A stretch of 45,154 nt of DNA from Dicyema japonicum (Eukaryota > Dicyemida > Rhombozoa > Dicyemidae). A program made the position numbers and the translations under genes. The notes below the pieces were generated by a model. That model did not search any database and was not told the origin of the DNA. It was given only the letters and a program-made list of their open reading frames with translations. Position 1 is the first letter of the stretch, and each line of letters opens with the position of its first letter. Shown piece after piece: positions 657-44,740 of this stretch. Where the stretch lies: positions 856,656 to 901,809 of the forward strand of contig RDEW01000024.1 of NCBI GenBank assembly GCA_011109175.1, in the 5' to 3' direction.

Positions 657-2230
657 TTATTTAACTATAGGAAAATAGTCTGTTAATTTCCCTCCGGTTG
701 CTGATTTTTTCATTTGCATTCCTAATATTTTTCTGAAATTATAATAATCTTTCAAAGTTTCAGGAAACAAATTGAAAATGTTCTCTTCAAGTGTATTCAT
801 CGCTGTTATTATTTCCAAATGAGAATAGGTACATTTTACTCCGTCGTATATATACTCGTCATCATTTTCTACTTGATTTTCAGTATATCTTTAATTATGT
901 TATCTAAACTCTCCAATTCATTATTCACCAATGATAGAGTTTGAAAACGACATTCATCAATTTTCTTCTAACAATTAGTAATTGATTCAGAGTGTATTTG
1001 TTTCCATGTCTTTCCAACAATAATGATTATTTGTCTGAGATTTACTTGCTTTAAATTCAACATTGTAAACTTAGCATCCTCAAAAGATAGGGTAAAATCC
1101 ATCAAATTATTCAAATAATTGGATTTGAACGATTTAATAACTCCCATATCTAAGGGTTGAATTAATGATGTTGCATTTTTTGGCAGAAAAAATAGCTCAA
1201 TGTTAGAAAAATGATTATTCTTGTGACAACTTGCATTGTCAAGTAAAAGGACAATTTTTCGGTTGTGTTGAATCATTTCTTCGTTGACAATGTTCAACCA
1301 AGTAATATATATATCAGATGTCATCCAACAATTTTTAGAAAACGAATAAAAAACTCCGTGCTTTTCAGGGTTAAAATTTTTGATACAACGTGGGGATTTA
1401 TATTTTCCTATTAATAATGGCTTCAATTTTCGCCACAAGCACTGACCGACAAAAGAATAGTAACTTTTTTTTTACTCTTTTTAATTCAAAAACAATATTG
1501 ATCTGAAGTTACAAATGATTTTGATGTTTTTCTTTNAATGTACAACGTGGGGATTTATATTTCCTATTAATAATGGCTTCAATTTTTCGCCACAAGCACT
1601 GACCGACAAAAGAATAGTGACTTTTTCTTTACTCCTTTTAATTCCAAAACAATCTTCATCTGAAGTTACAAATGATTTTGATGTTATTCTTTTAATGTAC
1701 AATCCCGTTTCATCGCAGTTGAAAATATTTTCAATGCCATAGTTATTAACATAGTCATGGTACTTATCAAAAAAAATTCCAAGGCAAGAAATATCACACG
1801 AATTTTTTTCACCACTTATTGTCTTAAATGACAAATTGTGTCTTTTCTTAAATTTTTCAAGCCAACCATTAAGGTATAGTTCAAATTCCTAGCTACTTTT
1901 ATAGCAATGTTTTTAAGAATAGGTACTGAAACGGGAATAAATTCTTCCCTTGCTTTAAAAAAGCATTCATAAACAATTTTATCGAATTTCTGTGACAGAC
2001 TGTCTCTTCTCTGTGAAATTTGACTAAGACAATTTGATTGTACGGACCCATTATTTATAAAGTTCATATAATTTTGTTTAATTCTAGATACTGCTCCTAA
2101 ACAATAGAATTATCAGATAACCTTTACTAATTTTATACTTTTTGACAATATCTCGTTCGCTCATGAAACAATTTTCGTTGATTTCTTGGGCAATTTTAAG
2201 CTTTAACTCCAAAGTAAGCTTCCTCCCCAT
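657..2230 (-). pseudogene. Tigger-type transposase with a tiny intron, inactivated
   Basis: DDE transposase of the CENP-B/Tigger/pogo group. The start at 2230 (MGRKLTLELKLKIAQEIN) begins the CENP-B-like helix-turn-helix. A 25-nt GT...AG intron at 2097-2121 joins KISKG to AVSRIKQN, the usual helix sequence. All three catalytic Asp contexts are visible: CDETGLY (about 1715), LLLDNASCH (about 1235) and PLDMGVIKSF (about 1140). The C-terminus reads to a TAA ending at 657. Breaks: a one-base frameshift near 1880 before GWLEKFKKRHN, an in-frame TAG after ITNC at 968, another frame change near 870, and the N-linked duplication at 1384-1695. It is a relic, but it retains most of the protein. Confidence 0.8.
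1384..1695. repeat. Near-tandem copy across the N at 1536 (likely assembly join)
   Basis: 1384-1535 and 1541-1695 are the same transposase segment with a few substitutions and one-base indels, separated by a single N. The duplicated protein text (KLKPLLIG, then the strand before the second Asp) occurs only once in the family. This suggests two overlapping contig ends placed side by side. Confidence 0.75.
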
Positions 2231-11422: not shown

Positions 11423-11843
11423 TCAAATTCTGAGAAAAAGATACAGAAAGTCAATCTGTGTATAAATATGAAATTCCAAAGTTAAATAAACTTCGTTCAT
11501 ATATATTTTATGTAATAAAATTAGAATTTGATTCCAAGTCCCCAAGGAAATCCTTTTGATAAAGTAACGAGTTTTTTCCAAGTACATTTGAACGTCTTGT
11601 CGGATAACATTGTAAATTTTGGTGTTTGTCAGGAAAAAATGTGTACGCAATTTTGTGAACAAACATAATTTTGAAGTTAATTAAAATTTGATAATTTGTC
11701 ATTAGACAAAGATTCTTTTCGATGCCATCGAAGATAAAAAAAAACGTTTTTATTACGTGAAGTGAGATTAGAGAGAGGAGGAAATTGAATTGAAATATAA
11801 GCAAATATTTTGTGATGTGTATGGAGTTCAATCGAAATGACAA
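11423..11843 (-). CDS. Possible minus-strand gene, unidentified
   Basis: Two overlapping minus-strand frames look more protein-like than background. One (11843-11508) has a hydrophobic start followed by FDGIEKNLCLMTNYQIL. The other (from 11662) reads RQDVQMYLEKTRYFIKRISL and GTWNQILILLHKIYMNE. They could be exons of one gene joined by a short intron, but I could not fix the junction. No domain was recognised. The putative start (11843) would be divergent from the mucin-like gene at 11902. Confidence 0.25.
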
Positions 11844-11901
11844 TAAATAAGGTTAAAACCTTTGATGAATATTTATAGTCGAATTCAGACTGAAATCTTG
11901 A

Positions 11902-12830
11902 ATGATGTTAGTCAGTGGTTTGTTATTTCTTAATATATTTTCCAGTAAATTGTAAAATTTGATTAATAGAGATTGGATTAAGAAATCTTGGAGAAGGTAA
12001 TATAATTTTTAATAAATAGGCGAGTTAGAAGATACCAATTCATTAATTAAAAGTATAACTAGTCATTCCTATAGTTTCTACTACTCTGTCGACGACAGCA
12101 GGTTTAATGATTAGTAATTCCTATAGCTTCTATTACTACGACGACGACAGCAGGTATAATGACTGTTTATTTACGTCAGATTCTACCATTCCATTAACTA
12201 AAGGTATAATGACTAGTCATTTCCCTAGCTTCTTTCACTTTATGATATCTATTTCCTGAAGGTATAATGAATAATCATTTCCGTAGTTTTTGCTAATCTA
12301 TTGATGAGAGAAGGTTTAATGACTAGTCATTCCTCTAGCTTCTACTACTCCGTCGACGGCTGAAGGTTTAATGACTAGTTATTCCTATAGATTCACCTAA
12401 TCCGTAGACGACTACAGGTTTAATGACTGTTCATTATCGTCAGATTCTACCACTCCATTGACTGAAGGTATAATGACTAATCATTTCCCTAGCATCTTTC
12501 ACTTCATGGAATCTATTTCCTGAAGGTATAATGACTAATCATTTCCCTAGTTTTTGCTACTCTATTGATGAGAGCATGTTTAATGACTAGTCATTCCTCT
12601 AGCTTCTACTACTCCGTCGACGGCTGAAGGTTTAATGACTAGTCATTCCTATAGCTTCTACTACTCCGTCGACGACAGCAGGTATTATGACTGTTCATTA
12701 ACTTTTGCTTCTACCACTCCATTGACTGGAGGTAAAATGACTGATCATCGCGCTAGCATCAACCAATCCATCAGCAAGTAATCTGACAGCAAGTATTTTG
12801 ACTAATACAACCTACGAAAATATTAATTAG
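11902..12830 (+). CDS. Putative secreted Ser/Thr-rich mucin-like protein, 17 exons mostly 24-33 nt
   Basis: The ATG at 11902 starts a signal-peptide-like MMLVSGLLFLNIFS. Exons: 11902-11944, 11970-11996, 12020-12052, then an array of fourteen: 12075-12101, 12127-12153, 12180-12203, 12229-12261, 12287-12313, 12339-12365, 12391-12417, 12444-12467, 12493-12525, 12551-12577, 12603-12629, 12655-12681, 12708-12731 and terminal 12757-12830 (TAG). All introns are 22-26 nt, GT...AG and phase 1, and every array exon before the last is 24, 27 or 33 nt. Translation gives units such as ASTTPSTAE and DSTTPLTE, as in O-glycosylated linkers; the joined length is 531 nt (176 residues). Faults: TGA in the 33-nt exon at 12229, TAG in 12391-12417, and the intron before 12708 ends TG. 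Each faulty exon could be skipped in frame. Probably secreted or surface; decay or alternative splicing cannot be told apart here. Confidence 0.7.
12053..12756 (+). repeat. Exon-plus-intron minisatellite, about 53-bp unit, 264-bp higher-order period
   Basis: Units of 50-58 bp repeat about 13 times. The same five-unit order (27, 27, 24, 33, 27-nt exons) recurs with a 264-bp period: gactg landmarks sit at 12161, 12425 and 12689. Each unit contains aatgactagtcatt, a perfect 14-bp palindrome, or a variant. That palindrome falls inside the inferred intron, between the GT and a pyrimidine-rich tag end. Confidence 0.95.
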
Positions 12831-12981: not shown

Positions 12982-13690
12982 TTAAACAACTAATTTAGTT
13001 AGTTTATCGTAAATTTGCCGGAATACTATCTGAGCACACGGAAAAGGTGCAAGACTGCTGAGATAGGCGTAAGTGATCACATTAGTACTAGGATTCCTGG
13101 GAGCTGGAAAATATCTCATAAATATATTAAATAGCTGAGGACTCAAGACTGATCCTTGTGGCAGTCCCCTCTTCATAACAATCTCTTCAGAAATAAATCC
13201 TCCACATCTCATAAATGATCCCTGTCAGGAGATTTCTTTACCAATCAAGTAAAACTTTGAGATTCCAGCTACGACAAGCAGATAATAAAGTGTGTCATGC
13301 TAGACACTATCGAAGGCCTTCGATATATCTAGACAGACGACACTCAGCTGATATTTGAAATTCCTGGCCTTCTCAATCTCAGAGTTCAAGATGAAAAAAC
13401 AATCTCCGCATGATTTCCAAGGATTGTTTCTTCCTGAGAAAATATGGGGATCCGACATGACTTGTAAGTCTTTTATAAATAAGCCTCTCCATGATTTTTG
13501 AAATTTGGCCTACTAGACTACTAGGTCTGTAACTTAAGAGATCTGTCCTCGATTTTCCTAGTTTTGGGATCATCCGAATAATGGAATTGATTGTATAAAA
13601 TAGAAGCACATTTTGTGTTGACTGGATCCTGGATTTTAAAGATGCTTTTGTAATGTCGAGTTTTAGATGACCTTTTGAAAGAATGTTCTT
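12982..13690 (-). mobile_element. Jockey/I-type reverse transcriptase relic
   Basis: The minus strand carries, in order, SYRPSSLVGQISKIMERLI (about 13530), VVCLDISKAFDSV (motif A, about 13330) and MKRGLPQGSVLSPQLFNIFM (motif B, about 13150). A motif-C remnant reads ITYAYLS where the catalytic FADD/YADD is expected, so the Asp pair is gone. Frameshifts separate the blocks. The relic lies on the opposite strand to the mucin-like gene, ending about 150 bases beyond its stop codon. Confidence 0.75.
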
Positions 13691-14394
13691 TTTATGTTGA
13701 AAAAATGAGCAAGGGGTCCAAGGTCACTCCAAAAATTCTTTGATGTGTCTGTATGGGAATAAGTTTTTACATAAATGTTGATATCTAGACAATCCTTTTG
13801 TCACCGGTCAGTGGTAAAATATTAAATGTGAATTTTCAGAATGAACGTATAGTCAGTTCGAATTCAGCCAAGTCTACGGGTGTGTAGGTGTGACCTACGT
13901 TGATACGTTTTTATTCAACTTCAAGGGTGTTATACTCCTTAATCTACTATATTTGTGTATAAGATGGTTTTTATCTTCAAAGAAGGAGATCTTATTGCTC
14001 CTAGAGAAAACAAGGATTGCTGCGATTAAGCTCTCTCTACACAAGAAGCTGAGTGATAGTCTACGCCAGGAGGAACATATGATGCTAGTATAGAAGAACC
14101 AAATAGCAGAACTGTGAAGTTTATAGATGGTTTCAAGAGGAATTCAAAAATCGAGGACACATACGTAAAAATGAGAGAACCTTTTGAAGAGAATGAACAA
14201 AGGAGGAGAATCCATATATAGGCTCCAAGCCTTGAGGTAGGACTCCAAATTACACAGATAATTTGTCGGAAATTGCAACAAGGTGGTGATCTTTATTACA
14301 GAACACCCGAAGAGTTGTGTTTCAAAAGTAATTGCCATTTTCGATGTCAGGCAGACTATATTTTTTATGTGCAAACTATATTTTAAACAGTATT
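13691..14394. other. No gene recognised
   Basis: Only short ORFs with no family resemblance (13890-14093 plus, 14144-14374 minus). Confidence 0.3.
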
Positions 14395-25114: not shown

Positions 25115-27491
25115 CTAAAATAATAAGAAAAATACATTATAAGATTCTTTAACGTCAATGGCACATTCTTGTAGATTCTTGATATTTGATAGCGAAGCCA
25201 AAGTTTCAATTTTGCTGAAGACATTTTTAGACATCATCATTGGGATGAATATTTGTGCTACTAAATCAACAAATAGTACGTTCATAGTAAACCATTCGAG
25301 AAAATTCCCAAATGGCCCAAAACCATAGTCTTTGGTCTAATTCCTCATTTAAAAGGTTTACAAGTGAATCAATAGATCTTTTGTTAAATGATATCTTACC
25401 GATAATATCCGATATAAAGTAATGTCCCATATTATCATTTGAACATGAAGCAATTGTATCAATAATATATTCAGACACGGTTTTATTTTCTGTATCAAAA
25501 TAATCAAAAATCTTCATATCTTCAGTAGAGTCACTCATTATGTTTGATAAAGCATTGCAGATGGCAATTATTGATATGTGTCCAAGTATCGCCAAAGACG
25601 TAGTCCCTATTAAAATTACACAAAACACACAATAAATAGGTAATCAATCCACTATTCCGAACCAGAGGTCGAATTTTCTCGAATTTAGTTAGATTTTCGA
25701 TATTAAAAAAAACTGGAAGTAGAAAGTAATCATGCAAAATAATATAATTTTTAGGAAACTGTTTAAAGAAGTCTAGAATAAGATCAATCCCTCCCAATTC
25801 AACAAACAAAGTGGCATTGTCGTTGTTTGCATCTGACAGATAATGTAAACCAAAATCACCTAAAAGATACCACAAAATTCTCCAAGCCACATTACAGTAA
25901 GGAAAAGCTATTAGTTCTTTGTATTTTTTAATATGATTCACGATTGACTAAATCGAAATAAACGATACCTCGATTGATCCGTAAAATCCCAAATAAGACA
26001 AAACCTCAATACTTTGACTCTTCATTGGAAGATACAATACATCATCACTCTCGATAATTCTTCAATGTGCGTGTGAACATCCCTGACGAATGTTTGAGTG
26101 AAAAATGAAAAAGACAAAATCTAAAATGAGCAAGCAAAATACAAAATTTGATAACTCCCAAGGTTTTATGCAACTCATAATTTCGCATAATATATTCTGA
26201 ACTGAAAAAAATATAAAAATGTGACTACCGTATGATGACAACAATGTGCTTCTAAAGTAACAAGGATAGCTTCATAAATAAGGCTAAGTTAACATGGACT
26301 CAAACCATCGATAAGATTCAGATATGTTCATTCCATCGATTTCGGTATTTAAACAATACCTATCAAGTCAACGTACGCGATTACATGATTTGTAGAATAA
26401 CCTTAGTATTTTGTGATGTTTTCAACAAACGGCAGATAAACTAAAATATAATTTCAAATACCCTCAAAAATCGTTTATAAAGAGAAGGCCGAATTTCAGA
26501 GTCGCAGTCGTTAATATAATGTAAAGTAGAACAAAGCATCGCATCCTTATGTTCAAAGTGAAAAATTGAATTAACCAAATTATATATGAGTAAATTTGAT
26601 TCAATCTACAATTATTATTAATAATATTACATTGTCATTATTTTTAAAAAATTGCGATATTTTTTGGAAGCAAAATGTGTCAATCTTGTGTTTCAACAGT
26701 TCTCTAATTGTTACCTAGCAAAATACGGTTTTAGTAATCCATAATCAATCAAGAATCCTGACAAATCAAAGAATTCTAAATTAGTGGCTAAATTTAATAA
26801 CGTTCTAAAATCACAGCTTAATTCATGCACATCTTTACTGTTTGTATACGAAAAATATCTTAATCTAACAAAATAAAAACCTTAGAGATCTGGGACTGGT
26901 AAGACTTTTGTTAAATTCTTCAAAATTGGATACCAGAACATTGTCAAAATTAATTCTTTCGAGTTCTATGATCAGTTTGATTGTGCAACTATAAATTTTA
27001 TTTGGACTACTTCTTTCAAGAAAGGAATCTGATAAAAGTTCTAGTGACCTAATTTCACTGAATCCGCTTTTAAATAGCAAATGAAGTAAAACTGGGTCAT
27101 CATATTCCAAAAGAGTGAAAAAATTGACATTATTTGGAAAATACTTCAGATAAGGCATATTCTCGGAAGATGAAATATAAGCCAACTTGATATTCGTTAA
27201 ATTTGGTAGGTTTTGGCACAAATTTGCTAGATCTTTAATATCAATTTGATTATTTGACAAATCAAGGCGGAAAATGTTGTAACATACTACTGTGAGTTTG
27301 CTTAATATTGAGAAATCATGCAAAACTGATAATATCTTTTGTGAATTTTGTGCTTTCAAATATTCTATTTCATAATGTATTCTTTTGTCAAACATCATCT
27401 TCGACTTTGAGCTTAATCCGCCATATTTCTTCATGTTAATGATTTTTCGATATTCATTAATGCAAAGTGCATACAATGAAGGAATTTGCAT
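25115..27491 (-). CDS. ZYG11-like substrate receptor of a CUL2 ubiquitin ligase (692 aa, 14 exons)
   Basis: Known role: ZYG11/ZER1 proteins bind Elongin B/C and CUL2 and recognise substrates, including N-terminal Gly degrons. Exons (minus): 27491-26881, 26864-26727, 26703-26631, 26605-26462, 26440-26385, 26359-26306, 26283-26229, 26196-26143, 26120-26041, 26017-25969, 25947-25860, 25832-25629, 25606-25280, 25260-25115. All 13 introns are GT...AG, 16-32 nt; the 2079 nt are in frame, near human ZYG11B (about 744 aa). SLYALC at residues 5-10 fits a BC box. Leucine-rich segments cover about 60-270 (FRLDLSNNQI, LEFFDLSGF). ARM-like helices follow, with family-like text (NDNATLFVELGGIDLILDFF, LWFWAIWEFSRMVYYE). 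The junction at 26018-26040 has alternatives; the others fit uniquely or nearly so. Confidence 0.85.
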
Positions 27492-28222
27492 TATGTTTAA
27501 AAATTATAGATTTTAAATTTAAAACCCAAATTAAAAAATTAATATAAAAATCCAGAATTAAAAAAATACTCTTATCTTTTTTACTATAAATTTTTCTTTA
27601 CACTTCGAGTCATCAATATTTTTTATTGTGATACATTGAAACACCAAATGGATGTTTTCCATCCTTTATGGTAGTTCTTGATCGATATTTATTATTTGTG
27701 ATGCTTCTGTCTCCGTGACAATGGGAACTTGATGCACTTAATTAGTTTCAAATTTGAGTAAAAATAGCAAAAATTAATCAAAATTGTATCCCGACAACAT
27801 AATTGACGTTTAGCTCTCTTTCATGATCACAATTGTGATAAATGAAGAAGCATTCTTAGTATCAATTCATCTCATATCGAAGACGATCAAATTGGCTGAG
27901 AAAAGGACGATGTAGAACACTTTGGGAAATACTCCACACAAAAATTGTTTCATATGTTAGGTAATCGAATTTGTAAGACGAATCCTGGATTTACAACACA
28001 CAAAGATGTTAGGGTTTACAAAGGTGTCATTTCTAAGAGCCCAAGTTTGGTATTCTCAATATAATTGATCAGATAATTTCTGTAGCACAAAAAACATGAC
28101 ATCCAGCTCTTCTTTAAACGTTAACTTTTATAGATGGTCTCGTCATAGCGCGTTTGCTTTTAATCTATTTAGTATCTTCTCTTCCTGTATGTGACTACTC
28201 TTTCCATAATCCTTGTAGACTT
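27492..28222. other. 5' flank of the ZYG11-like gene and inner end of the left arm
   Basis: AT-rich upstream region holding the inner arm-end repeat (27637-27765) and the first copy (27758-27910) of a segment repeated at 28770-28922. Matches 31186-31911. No further gene. Confidence 0.5.
27758..27910 (+). repeat. Direct repeat, copy 1 (copy 2 at 28770-28922)
   Basis: gcaaaaattaatcaaaattg through tcaaattggctgagaaaagg recurs in the same orientation in the spacer with a few differences. The right arm carries the inverted copy at about 31500-31650. Confidence 0.85.
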
Positions 28223-29190: not shown

Positions 29191-31911
29191 ATTTTTTAAC
29201 TTTTATCAAAATAAATTGATTTATTTCTTTGAACTTATCTAATATTGAAAGTACTGAAGGAGAATGGACAGGGAGTTATTTTAACATTTTACGTTTAATA
29301 TTGAGACGATTATCAAATAGTTAAAATTAAATAAATATAATTTAAAAATAATATCAATTGGTGTGTTGATGGCGACAATCTATATAGGTTTTTGATAAGA
29401 CAATTCCCAGTCACAGAGAGCCTATCGTTTTACAAAAGTGAGTGAGAACACGAGTGATGAAAATATTGATAACTTTTGGAAAATAGAATGTTTCCCAAGT
29501 TTTGGGAAAGTAAACACAATTTTACAACATTTATAGAAAATCTATCATTAAATTTATGTTCGCACGTAGTCACCGGAACCTTAATGAAGCGTTTAGGGAT
29601 AAAATGTTGTCAGAGATGTCCTTAGTCTCTCTTTGACCACAAAGATTTTGTAAAATCTCAAAAAAATTGAACCCGATTATAATTTTTTATCTGAATACCA
29701 TAGTAGTACTATACATGCTGACATTGCTCTATCTTTTTGACAATTTAAGGTAAATTAAAATAAAATATAAAAATTGACTATTCAAAATAGAATAACCAAC
29801 AAACGGAAAGATATACATCCCCCGTTTTTAAAGTTATGGACTCTACATTTGGTTTGTATTATTGCTTCTAAGAACTGCGACGAATTGCAAATACGTGTCT
29901 TTTAAAGGTCGTGTAAAATATAAAATATGAACCACAAAGTAAGCCTTGTCTGCAAAAAAGAAGGGACCATTAAATATGCAATTTTTTTTCTAGCCACTTT
30001 TTCAAAAAAGAATTAGAAGATTTATATTTCTCACTAATATCGTTATTACTGTGTATAGATTGGTCAACTGGTGACACTACAAACTAGAATGTATGTTGGG
30101 GGAGGTGTAGAAAAAGGTTAAAAAGCAATAATCTTTGGAGATAGTGTTCTGGTATGAATTTACTAATCAATTAGAAAGTAGAAATGTGAAACATTATCTA
30201 ACCCTCTATTGCAGAGAGAACTTGAGTAAAATAGGTGACAAACCATCATTGCATTAATATTATTGGATGGGTGCTTGTGAAAGAAATGCGAGAATTATTG
30301 GAAACAATCTGATGACTTGAGAATAAATATACGGACATATAGAAAATGTTGATCACATTGTATTAGTTGTATCAATGAGGACAATAGACCTACGCAAGTC
30401 AAAATCTAATAATCGAGTGAGGAGAATAAATAAAACAGATCAGAGATAAAATATAAAAAGTTTTATATTGACATTGAGAGGTTAACCGAATGGATGATAT
30501 CCCACTAACGTTTATCGACTATATACGAAATGGTCTGTGTTGAATAAAATTCTAAAATTCTGAAATTACTGGCATAATTTTTGACATAACAACTATTTGA
30601 GAAAAGAAAAATTGAAAGTTTAAGAAGAGAAGAATTGGAACAGGGGCGAGGAGAAGGTATTAACTAATGCCTTGGATAGTCAAAACTTTAATATTAAAAG
30701 TTCCTTTACAGAGTTTTGTCATGATTTATTGAAGAAGACTGCATCATAGGTGTTAGAACAAAGAGAGAGGATTAATGGAAGAGACAAGATATCAATCATT
30801 AACGACAACATATTTTGTTATCACCGAAAGATTAATTAAAGACAATTTTTTCCAATGTTCCCGCCGATAACACGAACACTCTGATACAAAAGTCAATAAA
30901 AATGACTAAAGCTGTTCCAGGACATGTGAATAACTTCCAAGACACTGTCACATACGGCTAAGTGGAACGACGTACAAAGGTGGAGATATCCCCCTTTTAC
31001 CAGCTGTGGAATCTGAATTTGGTTTGGATTATTGGTTCGTTCGAACACATGAGATTTTCAAAAGATGTCCATATTACTAAGCGGATGCACCATTAGCGTA
31101 TGAAATTGATGAAAATGATAAAATACATGACAAATTCGATGACGTTTTTGCATGTTGAAAATAATCTTGTTCTCAAAATGGGTAAGGATTATGGAAAGAG
31201 TAGTCACATACAGGAAGAGAAGATGACTAAAGTAGATTTAAAAGCAAACGCGCTATGACGAGACCACCTATAAAAGTAAACGTTTATAGAAGAGCTGGAT
31301 GTCATGTTTTTTGTGCTACAGAAATTATCTGATCAAGTATATTGAGAATAATCCAAACTTGGGCTCTTAGAAATTATACCTTTGTATACACTAACATCTT
31401 TGTGTGCTGTAGATCCAGGATTCGTCTTACAAAATCGATTACCTAACATATGAAACAATTTTTGTGTGGACTATTTCAAAAAGTGTTCCATCTCGTCCTT
31501 TTCTCAGCCAATTTGATCGTCTTCGATATGATCTGACTTGATACTCAGTGGCTTCTTCATTTATCACAATTGTGATTATGAAAGAGAGCTAAACGTCACT
31601 TATGTTGTCGGGATACAATTTTGATTAATTTTTGCTATTTTTACTCAAATTTAAAACAAATTAAGTGCATCAAGTTCCATTGTCACAGAAACAGAAGCAT
31701 CACAAATAATAAATATCACCAAGAACCACCATATAGGATGGAAGACATCCATTTGGTGTTTCAATGCATCACAATAAAAAAAATATTGATGACTCGAAGT
31801 GCTTAAAGAAAAATTTAAAGTAAAATAGATAAGAATATTTTTTTAATTCTGGATTTTTATATTAATTTTTTAATTTGGTTTTAAATTTTAAATCTATAAT
31901 TTTTAAACATA

Positions 31912-34286
31912 ATGCAAATTCTTTTATTGTATGCACTTTGCATTAATGAATATCGAAAAATCATTAACATGAAGAAATATGGCGGATTAAGCTCAAAGTC
32001 GAAGATGATGTTTGACAAAAGAATACATTATGAAATAGAATATTTGAAAGCACAAAATTCACAAAAGATATTATCAGTTTTGCATGATTTCTCAATATTA
32101 AGCAAACTCACAGTAGTATATTACAACATTTTCCGCCTTGATTTGTCAAATAATCAAATTGATATTAAAGATCTAGCAAATTTGTGCCAAAACCTACCAA
32201 ATTTAACGAATATCAAATTAGCTTATATTTCATCTTCCGATAATATGCCTTATCTGAAGTATTTTCAAAATAACGTCAATTCTTTCACTCTTTTGGAATA
32301 TGATGACCCAGTTTTACTTCATTTGCTATTTAAAAGCGGATTCAGTGAAATTAGGTCACTAGAACTTTTATCAGATTCCTTTCTTGAGAGAAGTACTCCA
32401 AATAAAATTTATTGTTGCACAATCAAACTGATCAAAGAACTAGAAAGAATTAATTTTGACAATGTTCTGATATCTAATTTCGAAGAATTTTCCAAAAGTC
32501 TTACCAGTCCAAGATCTCTAAGGTTTTTATTTTGTTAGATTAAGATACTTTTCGTATACAAACAGTAAAGATGTGCATAAATTAAGCTGTGATTGTAGAC
32601 CGTTATTAAATTTAGCCACTAATTTAGAATTCTTTGATTTGTCAGGATTCTTGATTGATTATGGTTTACTAAACCCGTATTTTACTAGGTAACATTTAGA
32701 GAACTGTCGAAACACAAGATTGACAAATTTTGCTTCCAAAAATATCTCAATTTTTTAAAAATAATGACAATGTGATATTATTAATAATAATTGTAGATTG
32801 AATCAAATTTACTCATGTATAATTTGGTTAATTCAATTTTTCACTTTGACATAAGGATGAGATGCTTTGTTCTACTTTACATTATATTAACAACTGCGAC
32901 TCTGAAAATCGGCCTTCTCTTTATAAACGATTTTTGAGGGTATTTGAAATTATATTTTAGTTTATCTGCCGTTTGTTGAAAACATCACAAAATACAAATG
33001 TTATTCTACAAATCATGTAATCGCGTACGTTGACTTGGTAGGTATTGTTTAAAACCAAAATCAGTGGAATGAACATATCTGAATCTTATCGATGGTTTGA
33101 GTCCATGTTAACTTAGCCTTATTTATGAAGCTATCCTTGTTACTTTAAAAGCACTATTGTTGTGATCATACGGTAGTCACATTTTTATATTTTTTTCAGT
33201 TCAGAATATATTATGCGACAGTTATGAGTTGCATAAAACCTTGGGAGTTATCAAATTTTGTATTTTGCTTGCTCATTTTAGATTTTGTCTTTTTCATTTT
33301 TCACTCAAACATTCGTAAGGGATGTTCACACGCACATTGAGGAATTATCGAGAGTGATGATGTATTGTATCTTCCAATGAAGAGTCAAAGTATTGAGGTT
33401 ATGTCTTATTTGGGATTTTACGGATCAATCGAGGTATCGTTTATTTCGATTTAGTCAATCGTGAATCATATTAAAAAATACAAAGAACTAATAGCTTTTC
33501 CTTACTGTAATGTGGCTTGGAGAATTTTGTGGTATCTTTTAGGTGATTTTGGTTTACATTATCTGTCAGATGCAAACAACGACAATGCCACTTTGTTTGT
33601 TGAATTGGGAGGGATTGATCTTATTCTAGACTTCTTTAAACAGTTTCCTGAAAATGATATTATTTTGCATGATTACTTTCTACTTCCAGTTTTTTTTAAT
33701 ATCGAAAATCTAACTAAATTCGAGAAAATTCGACCTCTGGTTCGGAATAGTGGATTGATTACCTATTTATTGTGTGTTTTGTGTAATTTTAATAGGGACT
33801 ACGTCTTTGGCGATAATTGGCCACATATCTATATTGCCATCTGCAATGCTTTATCAAACATAATGAGTGACTCTACTGAAGATATGAAGATTTTGATTAT
33901 TTTGATACAGAAAATAAAACCGTGTCTGAATATATTATTGATACAATTGTTTCATGTTCAAATGATAATATGGACATTCACTTTATGACGGATATTATCG
34001 GTAAGATATCATTTATACAAAAGATCTATTGATTCACTTGTAAACCTTTTAAATGAGGAATTAGACCAAAGACTATGGTTTTGGGCCATTTGGGAATTTT
34101 CTCGAATGGTTTACTATGAACGTACTATTTGTTGATTTAGTAGCACAAATATTCATCCCAATGATGATGTCTAAAAATGTCTTCAGCAAAATTGAAACTT
34201 TGGCTTCGCTATCAAATATCAAGAATCTACAAGAATATGCCATTGACGTTAAAGAATCTTATAATGTATTTTTCTTATTATTTTAG
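31912..34286 (+). pseudogene. ZYG11-like gene, right-arm copy, frameshifted
   Basis: Mirror copy of the left gene, with the same ATG context and the TAG at 34284-34286. Exon 1 (31912-32522) and exon 2 are intact and the splice sites of introns 1-5 are conserved. BC-box residue Ser5 is Leu here. One-base changes relative to the left copy include a shorter A run in exon 3 (before CTCAATTTTT), a lost A in exon 4 (ctttgacataagg), a lost base in exon 6, extra bases in exons 7 and 8, a lost A near 33830 and a shorter T run near 33893. Some are homopolymer-type, as a sequencing error might give; others are not. Either a decaying duplicate or a poorly polished assembly region. Confidence 0.75.
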
Positions 34287-41159: not shown

Positions 41160-42145
41160 GACCAATCAACAATACAGTCAATTGAAGATATCTCTATTTT
41201 AGCTAGGGTTCTTATTGTGTCGTCACTGGATTTCAATTTTTGCTTTACGTTTTTAAGTTATCTTAGGCTTTTCATGGGAACGGCCTCCTTAGCAAACATC
41301 GTGATCATCCATAGTTCTGTTCGACTGTGATTCCAACTCCATTCTCAGAATGTGCCCAAATAGTCTCTAACGGACTCCATTATCTCCTGGCTTATTGATG
41401 TACACCCACATATCTTATAAATTCCTTTGCATGAGTTTCTGGTTGAGCACCACATTGCAAACATCGTGATCATCCATAGTTCTGTTCGACTGTGATTCCA
41501 ACTCCATCCTCAGAATGTGCCCAAATAGTCTCTAACGGACTCCATTATCTCCTGGCTTATTGATGTACACCCACATATCTTATAAATTCCTTTGCATGAG
41601 TTTCTGGTTGAGCACCACATTCCTGTTTTTTTAGGTTATTCCTGAAAGATTCCAGCCTCTCCACTTTTTTGAGGTAGCCTAGATCCCAGTTTTGTATAGC
41701 AGAATAGGTTTTATAAGCGAGTTTTAAATCCTTAGTTTGTTGCTGATCCATCTTCGCTTTTTAGTTTTTTTCGCATTTGCCAAGGTTTTTTATATATCAT
41801 CACTCTCTCCTAGAAGGAAACTGAGTTTTTGCATCTAGCCATTTCTCTTTACTCATTCTTTTTATTTCCTTGAATTTTGTTTTGTCTTTGTTTACTGTAA
41901 GAAATCATTTCCCAAGTAGATCCGATGCTTTTTTCTAATATATGTCCCAAGAGAGCTCTTTTTTCAGAAATTAGATCGACGTCGTCTGCATAGATTACTT
42001 CTATTTTCTTTTTTATAACGGTCTGAGTTCCCTCATAGTTGTTCTGAAATTGTCGTAAACGTTAAATGGGAAAGAGTCTCCTTGAGGGGTGTCAGTGTTT
42101 GTGTTAAATTTTAATAGTAAATTTCTAATATTGTCTATATCGGGC
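41160..42145 (-). mobile_element. Non-LTR reverse transcriptase relic with intact YADD
   Basis: Minus-strand order: NTDTPQGDSFPFNVYDNF (motif B, about 42090), then KIEVIYADDVDLISEK with the catalytic Asp pair (about 41985). Then a linker, LAYKTYSAIQNWDLGYLKK with KVERLESFRNN (about 41690), and the tail RLFGHILRMELE (about 41500 and again at about 41335). Frameshifts and stops separate the blocks. The tail is duplicated in tandem, see 41292-41621. Confidence 0.7.
41292..41621. repeat. Tandem duplication of 165 bp
   Basis: 41292-41456 and 41457-41621 are adjacent and differ at essentially one position (cattctc versus catcctc). No N lies between them. Confidence 0.95.
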
Positions 42146-43702: not shown

Positions 43703-44389
43703 TTATAAAACTAAATCAGGCAACCAGTCATCATTAAAAGCATTCAAAACGATAGGAAGAGTATAAGTGAACAATCTCGAGTTATCATTTTGTTCGTTCT
43801 CTTCATCATTGGATTCCCCCAGTCTATCACGAAACCATAATTCAACTGTTTTACACATTGACGGCAGTTTAGGCTTATCCACGTAAATTAAATGACTTTT
43901 ATTGGTTGGAATCTAGGAAAAGTGGAGATAGAGATGAATCCTTGTCGAAGCACTCTTTGAGAGGACCTCACAGTTCAGAAACTAAGACAAATAGTGTTGA
44001 AAATACTTAGAGTTCACTAATTCCTCGGAAATCTCAGCTTCCGATAATTTTGGAAGCATAAATCTTATGCACATACGAGCATCTTCAATGCAGTTTCCAA
44101 AAACAACATCAATTTGGCAGAGATCCTCAACAAGACAAACTTCCTCAAAAAATTGGAAAAATTCTGAAACTTGAAGCCAGTAATTTATGAAATGGAAGAA
44201 ATAAGAAATATTTTCAATTTCTGAAGTAATTTCGTACAGTTCAATATAAGGCAGTGGAATATGACCATATAAATACAAAATGTGCTGTATGAGTCCGGAT
44301 AGTATAGGAGTTCTTACTACATTATTTGAAAACGCATTTTTTGTTGGACCAATTAACACCATCTTTCTTTCACAAACCATTTGGGACAC
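43703..44389 (-). CDS. p31comet-like (MAD2L1BP) protein, multi-exon
   Basis: p31comet binds MAD2 and helps silence the spindle checkpoint. Exon 1 (44389 down to about 44020) reads KMVLIGPTKNAFSNNVV, then LIQHILYLYGHIPLPYIEL, close in pattern to the human LLKHIMYQRQQLPLPYEQL region. Next come a coiled-coil-like helix (FFEEVCLVEDLCQIDVVFGN) and RFMLPKLSEAEISEEL. Downstream text continues with GPLKECFDKDSSLSPLFLDS, then VDKPKLPSMCKTVELWFRDR, where WFRxRL recalls the human WFRPKL, and ends at TAA 43703-43705. A GT...AG intron after SEEL and others near 43900 are needed; I could not fix all junctions. The first exon is repeated across the N at 44455. Assignment is by motif memory, without a search. 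Confidence 0.5.
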
Positions 44390-44740
44390 AAAATTTATTA
44401 TTTTTAATTTAATTATTTTTTATATTATAAATTTACAACTTCTTTTAAGAAAACNTTGAAGCCAGTAATTTATGAAATGGAAGAAATTAGAAATATTTTC
44501 AATTTCTGATATAATTTCGTACAGTTCAATATAAGGCAGTGGAATATGACCATATAAATACAAAATGTGTTGTATGAGTCCGGATAGTATAGGAATTCTT
44601 ACTACATTATTTGAAAACGCATTTTTTGTTGGACCAATTAACACCATCTTTCTTCCACAAACCATTTGGGACACAAACTTTATTATTTTTAATTTAATTA
44701 TTTTTTATATTATAAATTTACAACTTTTTTTAAGTAAAAT
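44170..44740. repeat. Near-tandem copy across the N at 44455 (likely assembly join)
   Basis: 44170-44454 and 44456-44740 are the same 5' portion of the p31comet-like gene plus upstream DNA, differing at a few positions. The second copy lacks the rest of the exon because it starts inside it at ttgaagcc. Confidence 0.8.

Follow-up and report, generated by a model that had tools for sequence, protein, structure and literature searches.

On the forward strand of the window, as the whole 45,154-nucleotide stretch of DNA that was analysed is called here, lies a mucin-like array gene that was outlined by TRF and by a reading at fixed coordinates (Table 1). In this gene, an ATG and a signal-peptide-like start are followed by two short 5' introns, by a tandem array in which each unit of 49-58 bases consists of a short exon and a tiny intron, and by a terminal exon that stays in frame to a TAG. 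All introns of this copy are 22-26 nt long. These parts had been proposed in a preliminary description of the DNA, and the coordinates fit, as they do for the array exons of 24, 27 or 33 nt in phase 1. TRF gives a period of 52 with 12.7 copies (12058-12726), where a 53-bp unit had been proposed, and a period of 264 with 2.7 copies and 87% matches (12058-12760), which agrees with the 264-bp higher-order period of the preliminary description and corresponds to a repeat of five units. Thirteen array introns of 25-26 nt had also been counted; thirteen do have GT and AG ends, but the array holds 14 introns, of which one is 22, ten are 25 and three are 26 nt long, and one of the 14 ends in TG.

Table 1. 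Features of the array gene in the window, with positions counted along the window
Feature	Position	Strand	Remarks
Stretch upstream of the ATG, ataaataaggt...tatttata	11840..11880	+	kept in both subfamilies (seven-locus alignment)
Mucin-like array gene, window copy (C109)	11902-12830	+	TRF and fixed-coordinate reading
Exon 1	11902..11944	+	ATG and hydrophobic signal-peptide-like start MMLVSGLLFLNIFS; ends in phase 1
5' intron 1	11945..11969	+	25 nt; position kept in both subfamilies
Exon 2	11970..11996	+	27 nt
5' intron 2	11997..12019	+	23 nt
Exon 3	12020..12052	+	33 nt
Tandem array	12053..12756	+	14 introns, 13 exons (24/27/33 nt), phase 1
Array exon with in-frame TGA	12229..12261	+	33 nt; stop also present in the C159 copy
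Array exon with in-frame TAG	12391..12417	+	27 nt; C159 counterpart open
Array intron without AG acceptor	12682..12707	+	ends TG; likewise in C159
Terminal exon	12757..12830	+	74 nt; in frame to TAG; ends NTTYENIN*

The window array belongs to a family that is spread over the genome. When the genome (64.67 Mb in 191 contigs) was searched at the DNA level with the window array, the array of one relative, 5' parts and 3' parts as queries, at least seven array-bearing loci were found, namely the window copy (C109) and the loci C159, C101, C118, C152, C135 and C153, and all counts from these searches are lower bounds. The search with the window array also recovered a fragment on C77 and, where C105 ends, a short remnant. 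The 5' and 3' parts added an old member, L074 (C109:122301), and L068, a 5' copy that has no tandem repeat according to TRF. In an alignment, the two subfamilies of the family resemble each other in the ATG, exon 1, intron 1 and the stretch upstream, and this upstream stretch probably serves as promoter or 5' UTR. The higher-order repeat has a lag of 5 in C109 and C159, of 2 in C118 and of 3 in C152, C135 consists of near-identical units, and no clear higher-order period emerged for C101 in the lag comparison; since these periods differ between genes, turnover seems to be separate in each gene. Among same-length pairs from seven genes, introns are more alike than exons, both within genes (0.875 vs. 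0.764) and between genes (0.772 vs. 0.676).

The exon-intron structure of the family was assessed with a parser that ignores frame and collects 20-28-nt GT-to-AG strings resembling six typed array introns of 25/26 nt. This parser was run on eight stretches, C77 being excluded, and returned 164 introns, 149 of them with a score of at least 9, and 156 segments between introns. Before the frame count, 16 of the 156 segments were dropped as bordering weakly scored introns; seven of the 16 are not multiples of three, and these off-frame cases comprise 43-nt 5' exons (C152, C153), the C105 remnant, and segments where an intron was falsely called close to the end of C118, C152 or C105. The 140 segments kept include 133 of at most 36 nt and seven longer ones (73 to 360 nt), and of the longer ones four span an intron that lacks AG, while the rest are duplicated or gapped stretches. 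Every one of the 133 short exons between well-scored introns has a length divisible by three, and these exons hold three stops in the claimed frame as compared with 52 and 67 in the alternative frames, counts that do not represent independent events because the units are related by descent (82 distinct exon and 86 distinct intron sequences). Two of the three stops are found in C109 and one in C159, whereas none occurs among the 111 exons from the six remaining stretches, and no split codon is a stop at any of the 149 introns. Across the family the exons are 24, 27, 30 or 33 nt long, in phase 1, and encode 8-11 residues each, with a composition over the 133 exons of 36% Thr, 22% Ser and 8% Pro. 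The 149 well-scored introns measure 25 nt in 97 cases, 26 nt in 46, 24 nt in three and 22 nt in three, lengths that are partly imposed by the 20-28-nt search and the typed 25/26-nt models. An intron without AG occurs in four stretches (C109, C159, C118 and C135). No clear purifying selection was seen in the exons: variability is highest at codon position 2, and single-base differences between distinct exons comprise 5 synonymous and 7 nonsynonymous changes, against an opportunity of 1770 and 4077.

Gene models were built for relatives of the window copy, with introns outside the arrays picked by hand and with the frame in view, and two of these models run from ATG to stop when, in each, one exon is skipped after an intron without AG. 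The C118 model has 40 exons and 39 introns and encodes 359 aa without a membrane helix; about 40 exons are packed within roughly 2.1 kb, near-identical introns of ~25 nt lie between exons of 24-27 nt, and the terminal peptide ends in DNIN* where the window copy has NTTYENIN*. The C135 model has 21 exons and 20 introns and encodes 215 aa, in which a hydrophobic start is followed by an array of STTPLTTA-like repeats, a hydrophobic helix IPAVIVIILVIYILH and a basic tail. The C152 model stays open over 340 aa, and by eye the acceptor of its last intron may be 9 nt further on; C101 has a stop in exon 2 on a plain reading and is open only with an alternative donor, and the C153 model is interrupted late and uses a doubtful 14-nt intron. 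In the old member L074, TRF reports no array but only two small AT-rich repeats upstream; its open model of 86 residues nevertheless retains GT...AG introns that separate exons of 24, 24, 24, 24 and 15 nt, and the first part of the model requires a 15-nt intron. The 24-nt exons of L074 bear only a weak resemblance to the array exon, which they match at 8, 8, 9 and 13 of 24 positions, as compared with a shuffled mean of 5.7. A hydrophobic start was judged by eye to stand at the same place in all six other modelled loci, L074 included. The exons of L074 are acidic rather than Ser/Thr-rich. No Pfam match was found for the two complete proteins (C118 and C135), and a protein search with the 215-aa model, which scored only the 7991 candidates sharing most words, produced a single marginal match, to a protein of Cotesia (E 6.5e-4), which was taken as low-complexity similarity.

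The array introns match the type seen in ordinary genes, GT...AG and about 22-28 nt long, where AG ends were required by both tools and GT by the parser, the aligner accepting GT or GC. By alignment to actin protein, 35 introns were modelled in ten actin or actin-like loci, and 29 of them are 22-28 nt long; the remaining six measure 17, 29, 29, 34, 37 and 78 nt, and these outlying introns may be aligner artefacts, as may at least one call of 25 nt that falls within conserved coding sequence. In Dicyema japonicum, a mean intron of 38.2 bp has been reported for a genome of 67.5 Mb in 377 scaffolds, estimated at 65 Mb (PMC6736024), and in Dicyema sp. the median intron is 27 bp (PMC6543705). The size and the introns of the present genome agree with such an animal, and a dicyemid is the best supposition, short of proof. 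The sections of these two papers that were consulted describe no exon-intron repeat gene for dicyemids (PMC6543705; PMC6736024).

Very likely, the array forms the repeat domain of a mucin-like gene. The gene belongs to an animal whose spliceosomal introns are very small and which is most likely a dicyemid, and the array units are presumed from their sequence to be spliced. A mucin-like gene tiled from exon-plus-intron minisatellite units, each of which could be skipped in frame, had been put forward in the preliminary description, and the frame test and the two open relatives bear it out. In such a gene, the minisatellite would copy each exon together with its intron as one unit of ~50 bp, and the array would grow or shrink in whole units by unequal exchange or slippage. 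As the array exons are in phase 1 and multiples of three, the gain, loss or skipping of a unit keeps the frame, and the loss of one splice acceptor would be survivable because skipping a unit stays in frame. The composition and the hydrophobic ends suggest a product of the secretory pathway that carries O-glycans and may be located at the surface, where the subfamily of the window would supply a form without a membrane helix and the other subfamily a membrane-anchored form.

Two other accounts of the array were weighed against a mucin-like gene. It is very improbable that the array belongs to a noncoding minisatellite family whose exon/intron structure is coincidental, even if such a family would sit well with exon parts that are no more conserved than intron parts, and rather less so, and with the shared descent of the copies, which deprives the counts of independence. 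The frame rule and the stop counts argue against a noncoding minisatellite, which was held unlikely on those counts; moreover, two models are open and have a hydrophobic start, with a membrane helix in one of them, the structure is retained in the diverged member L074, and the lengths of the array introns agree with those of the actin introns. Many array introns also carry an inverted repeat, AATGA...TCATT (for example at window 12204-12228), and it has been considered whether this repeat is the selected element, as an aid to recombination or splicing, with the protein secondary. The mean best stem in 82 distinct introns is 5.13 bp, as compared with 4.12 (largest 4.32) in 50 sets with shuffled interiors, but the actin introns have similar best stems of 2-7 bp, and since the array introns are related copies this weak excess may reflect a single inherited sequence. 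Selection on the repeat itself is a highly unlikely explanation.

While the mucin-like gene is the preferred reading of the family, the window copy itself is probably decaying, because it has two stops and one dead acceptor, three defects that the preliminary description overlooked. In-frame Ser/Thr/Pro repeat exons were found for the family but are broken by the two stops in the window copy, so that the intact Ser/Thr/Pro coding attributed to this copy in the preliminary description has to be given up; with two stop-bearing exons, it could encode no uninterrupted Ser/Thr/Pro protein unless these exons are skipped. It is somewhat more probable than the contrary that the window copy is a pseudogene, and its near copy C159 too, which would leave the array family itself real and is compatible with the mucin-like explanation. 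The confinement of the stops to C109 and C159, the acceptor missing in both, and the internally duplicated pieces and assembly gaps of C159 point in this direction, whereas the window copy keeps its ATG, hydrophobic start, terminal exon and 15 of 16 introns, and its stop-bearing exons are multiples of three that could be skipped in frame. If these exons and the one after the dead acceptor were indeed skipped, the window copy might still work, with the array as a pool of optional modules. Any skip would be frame-neutral among window array exons that are in phase 1 and multiples of three (omitting the exon after the 12682-12707 intron leaves the frame intact), and the otherwise open relatives C118 and C135 have dead acceptors too; but skipping of the window exons is hypothetical. 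In the other six stretches, 111 short exons are free of stops, which suggests that a stop is not usually tolerated, and a working window copy appears rather unlikely.

Modular spider silk genes are built of far larger units than the present array and encode structural silk, not a mucin-like product. In these genes, exon and intron are likewise repeated together, and the introns have been reported to be more homogenised than the exons, as in the present family (PMC2576457, in the sections consulted). By described architecture, the closest known system is SmPoMuc of Schistosoma mansoni, which shares with the array family tandem exon-plus-intron units, Ser/Thr/Pro repeats and a signal-peptide-like start. 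In the consulted sections of the SmPoMuc paper, a multigene family is described whose products have a signal peptide and 9-residue repeats with Ser, Thr and Pro, and in which a 27-bp exon 2 and its flanking introns stand in tandem, as many as 20 units of about 1 kb each, with highly homogeneous introns and intron-limited gene conversion (PMC2576457). The unit is thus about 1 kb in SmPoMuc and about 50 bp here, the repeat exon is 27 bp there and 24 to 33 nt here, and a membrane-anchored subfamily is present here, unlike in SmPoMuc as far as these sections describe it. In SmPoMuc, a homologous C-terminal region is encoded by exons 3-15, and the intron that separates exons 9 and 10 carries a hammerhead ribozyme (PMC2576457); a search for hammerheads in eight loci of the present family (51,892 bases) gave no Rfam match at gathering thresholds.

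The schistosome micro-exon genes (MEGs), in the parts of the literature consulted, are alike in having many short exons that are mostly multiples of three, and their products are secreted, a few being membrane-anchored, with isoforms that arise by differential splicing (PMC10526429; PMC4015677). MEG introns are 0.1-5 kb long, as opposed to 22-26 nt in the window copy, and the exons and introns here copy one ~50-bp unit, unlike those of MEGs (PMC10526429; PMC4015677). In the preliminary description, no gene with an exon-intron minisatellite this fine-grained was known; as to the kind of gene, novelty is not supported, since the tandem exon-plus-intron mucin is already known from SmPoMuc (PMC2576457, in the sections consulted), and what looks new is the grain of the ~50-bp unit together with the organism. 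In openly licensed literature, a search for dicyemids and mucin returned a trematode paper as its only match, and a search for dicyemids and micro-exons returned none.

The family suggests a route by which an animal could increase the number of its exons and introns jointly, as units of a minisatellite, with the reading frame unbroken, on a scale some twenty times finer than in schistosome mucins. As neighbouring introns are near-identical and the exons very short, the array genes provide a natural test of how the spliceosome pairs the smallest animal introns, and of whether in-frame skipping buffers dead splice sites. Tentatively, C118 might be the animal gene with the most closely packed lattice of exons and introns. 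Proximity or intron length alone would then perhaps decide which splice sites are paired, every skip of a unit would be in frame, one gene could give very many lengths of surface or secreted mucin, and the minisatellite would add whole exons and introns over evolution, though we regard this broader picture as speculative. A dicyemid origin, if true, would point to a convergent or shared design of mucin genes in two spiralian parasite groups, the dicyemids being parasites of octopuses.

Further observations concern the genome and the surroundings of the array. An LTGP peptide, which we take to be the Lox5 mark of spiralians, follows the homeodomain in two of 15 homeodomain loci (L051 and L058), and a strict search for KLTG found none. 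A homology search with an exon neighbouring the array, aimed at placing the animal, scored 337 candidates, and none reached E <= 0.001. Just downstream of the array, broken frames at window 13001-14200 (-) contain pieces with SKAFDSV and GLPQGSVLSP and are presumably reverse-transcriptase-like. At 968-1888 (-), a DDE_1 transposase match, which we assume to be of Tigger/pogo type, is split over two open frames and has a 157-bp tandem duplication within it. Facing gene copies at 25266-27503 (-) and 31900-33988 (+) form an inverted duplication, with weak Pfam traces below the cut-off (ZER1-like, leucine-rich repeat). Two-copy tandem duplications, both probably recent, were found by TRF at 41292-41621 (165 bp, 99% matches) and at 44167-44739 (285 bp, 96% matches).
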